This document shows positions 1,237 through 5,847 of a stretch of 6,211 nucleotides of DNA, in pieces. The DNA is from Gemmatimonadota bacterium (GTDB taxonomy: Bacteria > Latescibacterota > UBA2968 > UBA8231): the NCBI GenBank assembly GCA_002712305.1, contig PATE01000044.1, positions 2,496 through 8,706 on the forward strand, in the 5' to 3' direction. The notes below the pieces were generated by a model. That model saw nothing but the letters and a program-made list of their open reading frames with translations. It did not search any database and was not told the origin of the DNA. Position 1 is the first letter of the stretch. The number at the start of each line of letters is the position of its first letter. A program made the position numbers and the translations under genes.

Positions 1237-2748
1237 GTGGAACTTGAGTCAAAGCAGGCACAGGTAGAAGCAAAGGCCCTCAACGACGCCGAAGGCACCG
1301 TTGAGGCTGTTGTTTCTGTAACGAACATTGTGGACAACGTCAACGATGTGATTGAACCCGGCGCGTATTCGGACACCTTGCAGAAGCGCATCCCCAAGGG
1401 GGTGTGGTCGCATGACACGACGATCCCTGTTGCACGCACTCTCGCAGCGATCGAACTTGAACCCGGCGACGACCGCCTCCCGAAGCATCTGCAAGAAGCA
1501 GACGCTGGCGGTGTGCTGGTCAAGATGCAGTTCAATCTCAACACCACCCGGGGCCGTGAGGCTTACGAGGACATCAAGTTCTTCGGTGGGGAGCAGGAGT
1601 GGTCGATCGGCTACTCAGTCCCCGAGGGCGGCTCGGAGATGAAGGGTGAGACAGGCGTTCGCCACATCAAGCGCCTTGAGTGGTACGAGTATTCACCCGT
1701 GCTGTTCGGTGCTGCTCCGGGCACGGCCACCGTTTCCGTGAAGGAAACACCTATCGGCGACCCTGAGGAAGAGAAGGGTCCGATCGCTGGTCACGCTGTT
1801 GGATTCGCTGACGACCGTCCGTGGAAGCCATCGATGTACAAGAACGTGCGCTCCCCGGCCGACAAGGCTTACTACTCAAAGATCTTTGCCTTCTTGAAGA
1901 ATGGGGAGGACCCCACCTTCAAGACGAACTATTCCTTCATCCACCACTACGTCAGTAGTGATGGGTCACCCGGGGCTGCTGCCCTAGGCGGCCTTCGGGA
2001 AGGCATTGGAAGCCTCAATGGTGCCCGTGGGGGCAGCGTGTTGCGAGGTAGCGACAGGAAGGGCGTGTACAACCATCTCGCCCGTCACTATCGCGAGAGT
2101 GGCGAGAAGCCACTTGACTTGAAGTCAGATGAGGAAATGGAAGAGATTTTGGAGTTGAAGGCTTCTCTGGCTGGCTTTGACTTCACTGAAATAGACGCAC
2201 TCATTGACGAGGGCGCCGACATAACCGAAATCAAGTCCACTTTGGAGGACATCATGGCTAATGACGCCGAAAGCACCGAGACGACTGAGGCCGAAGTAGC
2301 CGATACCGGCGTCATCAGCACCCAGTCAGTTATCAACGAGGCCATCATGGCCCTGAACACCTTGTCGGAACGACTTTCCGATCTGGAAGAGAAGGCAGGC
2401 GACACCCCCGGCTTTTCGAACACGGCTCCCGATTCATCGGAGAGGGCCGAGGGCGCGGGTGCTGATGCACCGGAGGTCGTAGAAGACCTCAGCCACGGTG
2501 GGACCCTGACGCCAGATGAAATGGCTGTCGCAGGTTCCCCGGCAGGCGGCGACGCCAAGCCAGCCAAGGCTCCGAAGGTTGAGGAGGCCCCAGCCGAGGA
2601 AGAGGCTGAGAAGGCCGCCGAGACGGTCGAAGAGACCGCCACAGAAGACGGTGAAGAGGAGAAGGCCGCTGATCCGATCGACGGCTTGAACCTTTCGGAA
2701 CTGCGTGAGTTCCACGACCTCATCACCTACTCCGACTTGGGCGAGTAA
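1237..2748 (+). CDS. Capsid maturation (prohead) protease, peptidase S78 type, with long C-terminal extension
   Basis: 503 aa. Residues 10-169 are the HK97 gp4-like serine protease that trims capsid delta domains and scaffold during head maturation. The putative triad is His59 in the WSHD motif, Ser123 in EWSIGYS, and Glu151 in the E-x-S-P-V-L motif (Glu148 is an alternative). The segment ending GAAPGTATV matches the usual close of this domain. Residues about 190-296 form a second module with FIHHYVSSDG, LNGARGG and a YNHLARHYRESGEKP tail, a pattern I recall trailing other phage proteases. Residues 297-503 are Glu/Asp/Ala-rich, with a likely coiled coil at 364-386, low-complexity stretches, and a more ordered end (484-503). 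This tail looks like scaffold and is probably also made alone from Met340. The GTG start is set by AGGAGG four bases upstream. The protein is much longer than simple S78 proteases (about 200 aa). The family call is firm; the roles of the extension are inferred. Confidence 0.9.
   Translation: MELESKQAQVEAKALNDAEGTVEAVVSVTNIVDNVNDVIEPGAYSDTLQKRIPKGVWSHDTTIPVARTLAAIELEPGDDRLPKHLQEADAGGVLVKMQFNLNTTRGREAYEDIKFFGGEQEWSIGYSVPEGGSEMKGETGVRHIKRLEWYEYSPVLFGAAPGTATVSVKETPIGDPEEEKGPIAGHAVGFADDRPWKPSMYKNVRSPADKAYYSKIFAFLKNGEDPTFKTNYSFIHHYVSSDGSPGAAALGGLREGIGSLNGARGGSVLRGSDRKGVYNHLARHYRESGEKPLDLKSDEEMEEILELKASLAGFDFTEIDALIDEGADITEIKSTLEDIMANDAESTETTEAEVADTGVISTQSVINEAIMALNTLSERLSDLEEKAGDTPGFSNTAPDSSERAEGAGADAPEVVEDLSHGGTLTPDEMAVAGSPAGGDAKPAKAPKVEEAPAEEEAEKAAETVEETATEDGEEEKAADPIDGLNLSELREFHDLITYSDLGE
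2244..2256 (+). promoter_or_regulatory. Internal Shine-Dalgarno and in-frame ATG within the protease gene
   Basis: GGAGG at 2244-2248 is followed by a 5-nt spacer and ATG at 2254-2256, in frame with the protease (codon 340). Its quality equals that of the protease's own ribosome binding site. It sits at the junction between the conserved modules and the acidic tail, where a nested scaffold start would be expected. A second, weaker candidate follows: GAGG at 2338-2341 with ATG at 2347 (codon 371). Confidence 0.6.
2254..2748 (+). CDS. Candidate nested scaffold protein (in-frame C-terminal product of the protease gene)
   Basis: Starting at Met340 of the protease frame, this would be a 164-aa protein sharing the protease stop. 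It is strongly acidic and Ala/Glu-rich. It has a likely coiled coil near its residues 25-47, a disordered Pro/Ala/Glu-rich middle, and a C-terminal helix-like segment LNLSELREFHDLI. This composition is typical of tailed-phage scaffold proteins, which fill the prohead and are lost or digested. The precedent is lambda Nu3, made from an internal start in the protease gene C. The sequence shows the start signal and composition directly; the scaffold role is inferred. Against it, the capsid protein here already has a delta domain, which serves as scaffold in HK97, so the tail may act only as part of the fused protease. Confidence 0.5.
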   Translation: MANDAESTETTEAEVADTGVISTQSVINEAIMALNTLSERLSDLEEKAGDTPGFSNTAPDSSERAEGAGADAPEVVEDLSHGGTLTPDEMAVAGSPAGGDAKPAKAPKVEEAPAEEEAEKAAETVEETATEDGEEEKAADPIDGLNLSELREFHDLITYSDLGE

Positions 2749-2819: not shown

Positions 2820-3047
2820 GTGGATCTATATGCACAAATGCAGGGCGGCGCCAAGCCGACTCAGCGTTTCAAGTTAGATGTCATCCTTGAGAAACTCCCT
2901 GACGACGAGGCCGCATCGGTTCTCGCCGCCCTCCACGATTCTGCTGTTCTAAGCACCAAGATCGCTGAGGTTCTCTCCAACCACGGGCACCCTCTTTCCC
3001 CCAACGCGGTACGCAACTATCGGCTACACAAGATCGATAAACCGTGA
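2820..3047 (+). CDS. Small helix-turn-helix protein
   Basis: 75 aa. Residues 17-40 are helical (RFKLDVILEKLPDDEAASVL). Residues about 44-70 read as a helix-turn-helix: helix LSTKIAEVLSNHG, a turn at HPLS, and recognition helix SPNAVRNYRLHK. The pattern resembles small DNA-binding proteins of actinophages and the N-terminal domain of small terminases, but a packaging role is not shown. The GTG at 2820 is chosen because GGGGA at 2810-2814 can act as a weak Shine-Dalgarno; the in-frame ATG at 2838 has none. The stop overlaps the next gene's GTG by 4 nt (GTGA, 3044-3047), so the two proteins are probably made in step and may work together. Alternatives are a regulator of the head genes or a DNA-targeting partner of the phosphoesterase. 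Confidence 0.65.
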   Translation: MDLYAQMQGGAKPTQRFKLDVILEKLPDDEAASVLAALHDSAVLSTKIAEVLSNHGHPLSPNAVRNYRLHKIDKP

Positions 3048-4198
3048 AAGGCGATCTCCAGAAGGAGTTAGCCAAATCACGACTCGGCAAGATCGCCGAT
3101 CTTCTAGAGCGTTCAGGGATCGAACCTGAAGAGATCGGGACCATTGAGAAGGTCCGTATCTCCGAGTGGCAGGGGATCACCAAGAACGAAGAGGGTGAAG
3201 CCGAGATACACGACCTCGGTGGCATATCGGTTGTTATCGCTCCCGCATGGGCGGAGGGGCCACAGTGGCCCGTGGTTCAACAAGCGGCACCGATCACGAT
3301 CAAGCCTGCCCCAAAGGGGAAGAAGGCTAAGTCCAAGTTCAAGACCGCTGTGATCCTCCCTGATCCTCAAATCGGGTATCGGATGTACGACGACGGCACC
3401 ATGGATGCGTTCCACCATGAGGAGTCCATGAACGTCGCCTTACAAATCACCCGAGCGGTAGACCCTGACCTGATCGTCAACCTTGGGGACTTCCTTGACT
3501 TCGCTGAGTTTGGCAAGTTCGAGCAGGAACCAGCATTCGCAAAGACCACTCAGACAACCATCGACCGTGGTCATCAGTTCCTATGTGAGCAGAGGGCGAA
3601 TTCACCCGATGCCCACATCGTTCTGTTGGAAGGCAACCACGACCGGCGACTCCAGAAGTCGATTACGGCTAACACGGCTGCTGCTCTACACCTGAAGCGG
3701 GCTGAGGTGCCCGAGGACTGGCCGGTGATGTCGGTTCCATTTCTACTCCGGTTGAATGAGCCCCACCTGAACATCGAATACGTTGGCGGGTACCCGGCGG
3801 GGATCTACTGGGTCAACCAGAACCTCGCCTGCATCCACGGGCACATCACCAGAAGCCGCGGTTCAACGGTTGCAGCGGTGGTGGACGACGAACGAACGTC
3901 TGTGATCCACGGCCACATCCACAGGATCGAATTGCAGCACAAGACCCGGCGTACCTTTGAAGGGGCGAAGCGGAGTCTCGCGGCCTCACCCGGCTGCTTG
4001 TGCAGGATCGACGGTGCGGTACCATCTACGAAGGGGTCAACGGACCCTCATGGCAGGCCTGTGAACGCAGTGGAAGACTGGCAGCAGGGTATGGCTGTGG
4101 TCACTTACGAGGAAGGCGACGGAAACTTCGATGTCGAACTCATCCCCATCTCCCGAGGGGAGTCAATCTTCCGAGGCGACTACTTCTCCGCTTCCTGA
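3044..4198 (+). CDS. Calcineurin-like metallophosphoesterase
   Basis: 384 aa. The dinuclear-metal phosphoesterase motifs are in order: Asp107-Pro-Gln109 (motif I, Gln where most members have His), Gly148-Asp149-x-x-Asp152 (II), Gly197-Asn-His199-Asp200 (III), His265-Gly-His267 (IV), and Gly290-His291-x-His293 (V). Such enzymes cut phosphomono- or diester bonds, often in nucleic acids or nucleotides; the substrate here is unknown. Residues 1-66 form an extra N-terminal domain (leucine-rich start, then a segment with EWQGITKNEEGEAEIHDLGG), joined by a Pro/Lys-rich linker at about 82-99. No signal peptide or membrane segment is seen, so it should be cytoplasmic. The GTG start overlaps the HTH gene's stop by 4 nt and lacks a clear Shine-Dalgarno, which points to translational coupling. 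The fold call is firm; nuclease versus phosphatase activity cannot be decided. Confidence 0.88.
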   Translation: MKGDLQKELAKSRLGKIADLLERSGIEPEEIGTIEKVRISEWQGITKNEEGEAEIHDLGGISVVIAPAWAEGPQWPVVQQAAPITIKPAPKGKKAKSKFKTAVILPDPQIGYRMYDDGTMDAFHHEESMNVALQITRAVDPDLIVNLGDFLDFAEFGKFEQEPAFAKTTQTTIDRGHQFLCEQRANSPDAHIVLLEGNHDRRLQKSITANTAAALHLKRAEVPEDWPVMSVPFLLRLNEPHLNIEYVGGYPAGIYWVNQNLACIHGHITRSRGSTVAAVVDDERTSVIHGHIHRIELQHKTRRTFEGAKRSLAASPGCLCRIDGAVPSTKGSTDPHGRPVNAVEDWQQGMAVVTYEEGDGNFDVELIPISRGESIFRGDYFSAS

Positions 4199-4481
4199 AG
4201 ACGGCAAAGCACCTTTGTTCGATGAGGGGATTCCGCAAGCCCGTCATTTCCCGGTTATCACGATTGTTCTCTCGTTGGACGACCCCGGCGAACCGAACCA
4301 TGTTGATTTAGGGTCGGTCCCTCCTCAGATCGCTGCGGGCGCACTTGAGGGCATCGCTAATCATCTGAAGAAGTTGACGTGGCCGAGTCGTGTCACCTAT
4401 GCGGGGCACACCATTTTTGACCCTGAACAAATGATGCCGAATATGGATGACGATGACTTCGGCGATGGAGATATGTGCTGA
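4131..4481 (+). CDS. Hypothetical acidic protein
   Basis: 116 aa, not recognised. The N-terminal 30 residues are Ser/Pro/Glu-rich and probably disordered. Residues 40-98 look folded: a strand (FPVITIVLSLDD), a helix (PQIAAGALEGIANHLKKL), and a strand pair (RVTYAGHTIFD). The tail is very acidic (MDDDDFGDGD) and ends in Cys. The ATG at 4131 lies 68 nt inside the end of the phosphoesterase gene. Its only upstream signals are GGA at 4121-4123 and a distant GAGGAAGG at 4109-4116. The overlap means the Ser/Pro-rich start could be an artefact of reading a second frame; a TTG at 4215 would give about 88 aa and still keep the folded part. The position suggests co-expression with the HTH and phosphoesterase genes. 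Confidence 0.6.
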   Translation: MSNSSPSPEGSQSSEATTSPLPEDGKAPLFDEGIPQARHFPVITIVLSLDDPGEPNHVDLGSVPPQIAAGALEGIANHLKKLTWPSRVTYAGHTIFDPEQMMPNMDDDDFGDGDMC

Positions 4482-4578: not shown

Positions 4579-5847
4579 ATGGCGATTCAGGATTCCCATC
4601 TTCGGGAACTGAAGACCGCCCTTCGCGACACCCTGAGCGAGAACGACGCAATTGTCGATCACGCTGAGGCCGGTCGTGAAGAGGGCGGTCCAGACATTCA
4701 GGTTGAGGGTAAGCACCTTCAGGGCTTTCGTGCCAACCTTTCCAAGGCTCGGGATCTGCGCGAGCAGATCGAAGCCTTGGAGGGCCAGAAGGAGATGCAG
4801 GACTGGGCTTCTGCATCGACTGAACAGCCTGAGGTTGTTACAGAAGCCAAAGAGGCTTTTCCGGGTTCCGTTGGTCAGGGCTTCATCGATTCAGATGAAT
4901 TCAAGTACCTGAACGGCGGCGCTAACGGCCTGACCATGCACGTCCCCTACACCGTCAAGGGCGACCTTGGCGGCATGTGGCAGCGCAAGGACGTCTACAC
5001 GACGCTTCCTTCGGGCACTCCTTCACAGTTCGGCACGCCTCAGCGTGACGCGATCGTGGAGAGGGCTCACCGCGCTGCACGCGTGAGGGACCTGTTCAAC
5101 GTCCAGCAGACCAGCACAAACTTGGTGGAGTACTTCCGGGTCACCGGATTCACCAACAACTCGGCTACCACGACGGAGCGCTCAGGTTCACCTGAGACCT
5201 TCACGTCGTACCCACAGTCGACGCTGACCATCGCTGGCGCGCAGGCTCCGGTCCGCAACATCGGTCACTACGAGGTTGCTCACCGGAACGTGCTTGCTGA
5301 TGAGCCCGCAATGCGGGGCATCATCGACAACGAGTTGCTGTACGGCCTCCGTCTCACCGAGGATGATCAGATCCTCAACGGTGACGGTACCGGCACCAAC
5401 CTGACCGGCATCACCAACGCGGGCGTTTCCGTGCAGGCGCTGGGTTCGGACACACGGATCGATGCGATCCGTAAGTCCATCACCAAGATTGCTCTCGCTT
5501 ACTACGAGGCAACAGGGATGGTCGTCCACCCGACTGACATGGAGCAGATCGAACTTGAGAAGGACGGCGACAACCGTCACATGCTCACTGCTTCGATTGC
5601 CCTTGGTCCCGAGGCACGCATTTGGCGTCTTCCGGTTGTTGAGTCCGCTGCGATCACTGTAGGAACCGCTCTTGTCGGCTCCTTCGGTATCGGTGCGACG
5701 CTCTATGACCGCATGGAAGGCAACATTCGCATCTCCGAGAACCACTCTGACTTCTTCGTGAGGAACGCCATTGCGATCCTCGCCGAGGAGCGGATTGCTC
5801 TCGCTGTGAAGCGGCCCGAGTCCTTCTGCATCGTGACGGGCATCTAG
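4579..5847 (+). CDS. Major capsid protein, HK97 fold
   Basis: 422 aa, close to the size of HK97-type major capsid precursors. Residues 1 to about 90 are a helical, charged delta domain with a likely coiled coil at 45-76 (LSKARDLREQIEALEG). This region normally guides assembly inside the prohead and is cut off by the protease. The mature part probably begins between about 85 and 100, before the segment GFIDSDEFKYL. The rest follows the family layout: an extended-loop region, FRVTGFTNN and the Ser/Thr-rich strands around 185-215, the backbone helix ending in NELLYGLRLTEDDQILNGDG (251-270) with TNLTGI, the VVHPTDMEQIE segment (315-325), and the C-terminal NHSDFF...RIALAVKRPESF. The start is set by CGAGGT 8 nt before the ATG. 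A terminator follows at once, so it ends this transcript. The call is firm; the exact cleavage site is inferred. Confidence 0.93.
   Translation: MAIQDSHLRELKTALRDTLSENDAIVDHAEAGREEGGPDIQVEGKHLQGFRANLSKARDLREQIEALEGQKEMQDWASASTEQPEVVTEAKEAFPGSVGQGFIDSDEFKYLNGGANGLTMHVPYTVKGDLGGMWQRKDVYTTLPSGTPSQFGTPQRDAIVERAHRAARVRDLFNVQQTSTNLVEYFRVTGFTNNSATTTERSGSPETFTSYPQSTLTIAGAQAPVRNIGHYEVAHRNVLADEPAMRGIIDNELLYGLRLTEDDQILNGDGTGTNLTGITNAGVSVQALGSDTRIDAIRKSITKIALAYYEATGMVVHPTDMEQIELEKDGDNRHMLTASIALGPEARIWRLPVVESAAITVGTALVGSFGIGATLYDRMEGNIRISENHSDFFVRNAIAILAEERIALAVKRPESFCIVTGI

Follow-up and report, generated by a model that had tools for sequence, protein, structure and literature searches.

The window, i.e. 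the complete stretch of 6,211 nt of DNA that was analysed, contains on its forward strand the gene of a capsid maturation protease and, downstream of it, that of a major capsid protein. The sequences suggest that, in a family of uncultured phages, this gene for a head-building protease also contains the start of a second, shorter protein. The features are as follows.

1237-2748, + strand: open reading frame of the capsid maturation (prohead) protease, 503 aa, with a GTG start codon and AGGAGG upstream
About residues 13-166 of the protease, + strand: S78 domain (PF04586 Peptidase_S78, E = 1.1e-12)
2235-2250, + strand: possible small hairpin over the Shine-Dalgarno (SD) sequence, the stem pairing 2235-2238 with 2247-2250 as (G/A)UCC-N8-GGA(C/U)
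2236-2274, + strand: region of translation initiation under constraint, from -18 to +21 relative to the internal ATG, where synonymous variation is lowest in the gene
2244-2248, + strand: SD-like GGAGG, in the Leu-Glu-Asp codons TTG GAG GAC
2254-2256, + strand: internal ATG (Met340), in frame with the GTG at 1237 and invariant in homologues
2254-2748, + strand: predicted nested product of 164 aa, 17.0 kDa, pI 4.05
2320-2397, + strand: predicted long helix, product residues 23-48, a candidate coiled coil (pLDDT about 88-94)
2692-2739, + strand: conserved C-terminal helix, product residues 147-162, a candidate capsid- or delta-docking peptide (pLDDT about 71-81)
4579-5847, + strand: major capsid protein of the HK97 family (PF05065, E = 2.3e-40; HK97 gp5 and related chains matched in the PDB)

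Peptidase_S78 is the sole Pfam match of the protease, with none to the S49 type that would make it a homologue of lambda C. The initial annotation had assigned the protein to S78, a family other than that of lambda C, and was right in this. Its PHROG match is phrog_80, head maturation protease. The full-length AlphaFold model has a mean pLDDT of 50, and served solely to assess the N-terminal fold and to give a hint of helix at residues 329-350. The N-terminal model, which is of low confidence, matches the T4 gp21 capsid protease with Z = 8.8 and 3.4 Å over 130 residues, the next match having Z = 3.4. No herpes assemblin chain was in the list of fold matches for the N-terminal domain, which does not exclude such a likeness.

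Beyond the S78 domain there is a conserved middle domain (1840-2110, residues about 200-295; YSFIHH..DGSPGAA..LNGARGG..DRKGVYNHLARHY) that has no Pfam or PHROG name. In two distantly related contigs, L048 and L049, a second copy of it is found on a separate downstream ORF. The protease ORFs of these contigs are longer (81-2549, 822 aa in L048; 3974-6262, 762 aa in L049), with large insertions between the S78 and middle domains. Just past the protease stop codon in the window is a perfect 8 bp inverted repeat, CCACAGCC/GGCTGTGG (2756-2779), with no run of T.

The sequence at the internal start is 5'-TTTGGAGGACATCATGGCT-3' (window letters). The GGAGG is separated from the ATG by the 5 nt spacer ACATC (2249-2253), and the predicted product contains 43 D/E and 9 K/R residues; its N-terminal peptide would be MANDAESTETTEAEV or ANDAESTETTEAEV. 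The arrangement of GGAGG, 5 nt spacer, in-frame ATG and 164 aa product described in the initial annotation is thus borne out by the sequence. When the seven ORFs of the window were scanned, ATG 2254 was the only in-frame ATG, GTG or TTG preceded by GGAGG, AGGAG or AAGGA at 4-10 nt. A scan for sigma-70-like sites found no such promoter within 1100-2900. An unstructured start region was considered as added support and set aside, the region being not clearly unstructured (a median of 38% of positions in the rest of the gene are less structured).

GGAGG could come from the Leu-Glu-Asp codons alone, and therefore conservation is the test. Two scans of viral contigs supplied the homologues. Most share 64-100% identity in the best segment over the full length, and 45 distinct sequences cover the internal start site. 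All 45 retain the ATG at 2254, preceded by (T/C)TG GAG. The full GGAGG is present in 41 of the 45 and GGAG in the other four (L012, L017, L018 and L034), where Asn replaces Asp. The spacer is 5 nt in every homologue except L036 and L037, in which one extra codon before the methionine extends it to 8 nt. In L013, L019 and L038 two codons are missing directly after Met340, while the methionine is kept. The flanking residues are variable, with Ile, Thr or Val preceding Met340 and Asn, Asp or Glu following it.

The initial annotation had pointed to homologues that keep the acidic tail and lose the internal start as the cases that would speak against it; no homologue of this tail without the internal start was seen. 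The more distant S78 proteases of the Brevibacterium phage Cantare and of Gordonia phages have acidic tails and no internal SD-ATG. Cantare, the sole distant tail compared, has no detectable homology to the tail studied here. Candidate internal starts in the Cantare and Gordonia S78 proteases, and in the tail ORFs of L048 and L049, were rejected since no convincing SD-ATG was present. A scan of a genome collection for relatives of the protease gene found none, and the gene is absent from 24 relatives of the host assembly.

Synonymous differences were compared column by column with an expectation based on the overall synonymous divergence of each pair of sequences and on the amino acid, for 33 non-redundant sequences whose synonymous difference averages 0.53 and whose pairwise nucleotide identity averages 0.69. 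The lowest synonymous variation in the 503-codon gene is at residues 332-346, at 0.16-0.33 of expectation, and windows of 5, 8, 10, 12 and 15 codons all agree. The comparison of homologues proposed in the initial annotation thus came out in favour of the internal start, with the ATG in 45/45, GGAGG in 41/45 and the minimum of synonymous variation at this site. Leaving aside Met and Trp, only three of the 205 residue-invariant columns are also codon-invariant, namely Ser334 (TCC), Glu337 (GAG) and Ala344 (GCC), all within six codons of Met340. Codons 335, 339, 342 and 343 vary freely and are interspersed in the constrained patch, which is therefore not a stretch of recently recombined or shared DNA. 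The probability of finding GAG in all 33 sequences is about 1e-14 given the codon use of each, and 7e-5 in nine representatives of less than 75% nucleotide identity; both values ignore shared ancestry. The constraint spans about residues 334-346, beginning some 8 nt ahead of the position given in the initial annotation (2244). An initiating ribosome covers a stretch of mRNA about as wide as that from -18 to +21. The start signal is under strong selection at the nucleotide level.

Met371, which is also preceded by GAGG at a spacing of 5 nt, serves as a negative control. It is not conserved, being T, A, V or R in other homologues, and was rejected as a second internal start. As a positive control, the lowest windows of the metallophosphoesterase gene fall near residues 361-366, the place at which the following ORF starts in another frame (ATG 4131). 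In the major capsid protein, portal-MuF and 75 aa genes every 15-codon window stays at 0.60 or above; the protease reached 0.40 in the same run. The dip in the portal-MuF gene falls in a variable linker for which few pairs can be compared; for linker residues 78-94 (232-282) synonymous variation is reduced to 0.42-0.60. Within the protease gene, codon 329 (2221-2223) is ATA, TTA or CTA in 31 of the 33 sequences despite the switch between Ile and Leu, and its conserved TA is some 31 bases ahead of the internal ATG.

Could the motif have arisen by chance, as a GGAGG supplied by the Leu-Glu-Asp codons of an acidic protein next to a methionine conserved as a helix residue? The AlphaFold helix at residues 329-350 of the full-length protein would lead one to expect some conservation of residues. 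The absence of synonymous change is not explained by constraint on the protein, and we regard a chance origin as hardly credible; an SD arising from Glu and Asp codons is largely refuted by the conservation at the codon level.

The conserved bases might alternatively form an RNA element, either a small hairpin or a protein-binding site, regulating translation of the protease or stability of the mRNA rather than acting as a start. The codon-invariant Ser334 TCC and Ala344 GCC lie outside the SD, and can pair with GGA and GGC. The possible hairpin has four pairs. Across 23 distinct sequences the outermost reads GC 19 times and AU 4 times, and one inner pair is broken in three of them. It could account for the fixed TCC and GCC, a suggestion that draws on few independent events. 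RNAalifold favours a shifted stem, without covariation. Any hairpin here is, we infer, weak at best, and could be opened by a translating ribosome. With four pairs, one of them changed and a mismatch in the GGAG-only group, the hairpin argues poorly for such an element. The constrained bases are instead exactly the SD, spacer and ATG, and span as much as an initiating ribosome covers; Met340 is kept despite adjacent insertions and deletions. An RNA element in place of a start is very improbable. It is very likely, from the pattern of conservation, that the in-frame ATG at 2254 is used as an internal start of translation in vivo.

The tail that would be translated from this start has the long helix, then an acidic linker, disordered at residues 93-140 in the tail model, and then the conserved C-terminal helix. 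Identity to the majority residue falls from 0.72-0.84 in the rest of the tail to 0.54 in the linker. Searches for a PHROG or Pfam scaffold match or a PDB fold match for the tail, which is mostly disordered, gave nothing reliable. In L048 and L049 the motif at its C-terminus, LxLxELREFxDL, ends another ORF, which follows shortly after that of the protease; hhalign gave E-values of 1.1e-5 and 1.6e-7, in single comparisons. The protease ORFs of L048 and L049 end without LxLxELREFxDL, and that part is therefore encoded apart from the protease there. A search with the L048 tail ORF matched only itself.

The major capsid protein has about 80 strongly conserved N-terminal amino acids followed by a variable linker, and is delta-like by this layout. 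Lys91, at the delta junction, is present in 28 of 31 sequences. In the tail Lys47 and Lys120 are invariant (35/35), the latter within the variable acidic linker. Tail Lys47 and Lys120 and capsid protein Lys91 could be shared sites for the protease, which would make the tail a substrate in the prohead; cleavage of the nested product by the protease is speculative.

Between the protease and major capsid protein genes (2820-4481) are a small HTH-like ORF, the metallophosphoesterase and a 116 aa ORF. In L048 the small HTH-like ORF and the beginning of the phosphoesterase are likewise found 3', as is the phosphoesterase in L049. The start of the 116 aa ORF overlaps the phosphoesterase gene, which is read in another frame, and there is near-zero synonymous variation in both genes at 4131-4198; at the level of sequence this indicates a real overlapping gene.

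We consider next what the nested product might do. The initial annotation had proposed that it is a scaffold. The acidic and helical character of the tail and the separately encoded motif in L048 and L049 favour this, while the delta-like domain of the major capsid protein, which the annotation had missed, counts against it. The structure and composition of the tail and its separate encoding in L048 and L049 fit with an assembly protein, and a role in prohead assembly is likely; that it is a scaffold in the strict sense has about even chances. The name scaffold is plausible, on the strength of composition, predicted helices and analogy. We put incorporation into the prohead together with a scaffold-like role at slightly better than even.

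With a delta-like domain present in the major capsid protein itself, there is no obvious need for a separate scaffold, and the nested product may serve as an accessory scaffold, or as a regulator or targeting partner of the protease. It is possible, if on the unlikely side, that the internal start is real and that the short product has a task other than scaffolding, acting as a partner or decoy that sets the number of protease molecules per prohead, or as an internal head protein. An HK97-type system has no need of a separate scaffold (PMC12749128), and a tail shared with the protease could heterodimerise with it through helix 23-48. Against such a role are the scaffold-like composition and architecture of the tail, and the fact that known nested protease genes give rise to scaffolds (PMC4378225, PMC4498786).

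The explanation that we favour, and hold as a whole to be reasonably probable, is that one protease gene gives two proteins with a common C-terminus. Ribosomes starting at the GTG at 1237 would make the 503 aa protease including the tail, and an independent start at ATG 2254 with its own GGAGG would make the 164 aa tail alone. The tail, comprising helix, acidic disordered linker and C-terminal helix, probably targets the protease to the assembling prohead. The free tail probably goes into the same inner core of the prohead, acting as an accessory scaffold that outnumbers the protease, and is probably destroyed or lost on maturation, the delta-like domain of the capsid protein probably being the main scaffold. 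A more elaborate version is tentative and rather doubtful; in this the delta domain and an S78-nested scaffold would act together, with the hairpin partly covering the start so that output is coupled to translation of the protease.

Gene finders would list a single protease at this locus and overlook an additional assembly protein that is probably abundant. The nesting, if confirmed, would occur in a phage whose capsid protein already carries a delta-like domain of the HK97 type, and it would become testable why some HK97-like phages would need a second scaffold. The test of codon constraint is applicable to other capsid protease genes, and could reveal hidden nested products.

Lambda C is an S49-type protease, and the lambda major capsid protein has no delta domain. 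By contrast, the present system has an S78 protease and a delta-like domain in the major capsid protein. What the two have in common is an in-frame start inside the capsid protease gene, in its 3' part; in lambda the Nu3 scaffold is made from such a start (Shaw and Murialdo 1980, as cited in PMC8508860). The precedent of C/Nu3 invoked in the initial annotation is joined by those of Mu-like phages (PMC4378225) and herpesviruses (PMC4498786).

Mu and the Pseudomonas Mu-like phage PaMx73 share with the present gene an internal SD and an in-frame start inside the protease gene. The Mu protease gene belongs to a different family from that found here. In Mu these signals lead to a scaffold, and in gene 27 of PaMx73 the counterpart start, which is only predicted, is at a valine codon (Val177) (PMC4378225).

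The herpesvirus UL26 and UL26.5 genes encode protease and scaffold in frame and 3'-co-terminally, with a C-terminus that binds the capsid protein (PMC4498786). The in-frame, 3'-co-terminal layout is common to both systems, the short C-terminal form being predicted here. The herpesviruses differ in being eukaryotic viruses with overlapping genes, and for cytomegalovirus the title of a reference in PMC4498786 speaks of separate 3'-co-terminal transcripts for the UL26/UL26.5 family; here there is a bacterial SD, and no sigma-70-like promoter was found.

HK97 and D3 are alike in that their major capsid protein, of the HK97 family, has a scaffold-like domain at its N-terminus and is accompanied by a dedicated maturation protease. 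The HK97 maturation protease is of the S78 family. In HK97 and D3 the N-terminal delta domain of the major capsid protein is the scaffold (PMC12749128) and none is separately encoded, whereas here a nested tail product is predicted. Our search of the open-access literature found no report of a scaffold nested in an S78 protease gene, which does not prove that there is none. In-frame nesting of protease and scaffold is thus already known from lambda, Mu and the herpesviruses, and what would be new here, if confirmed, is its extension to the gene of an S78 protease.
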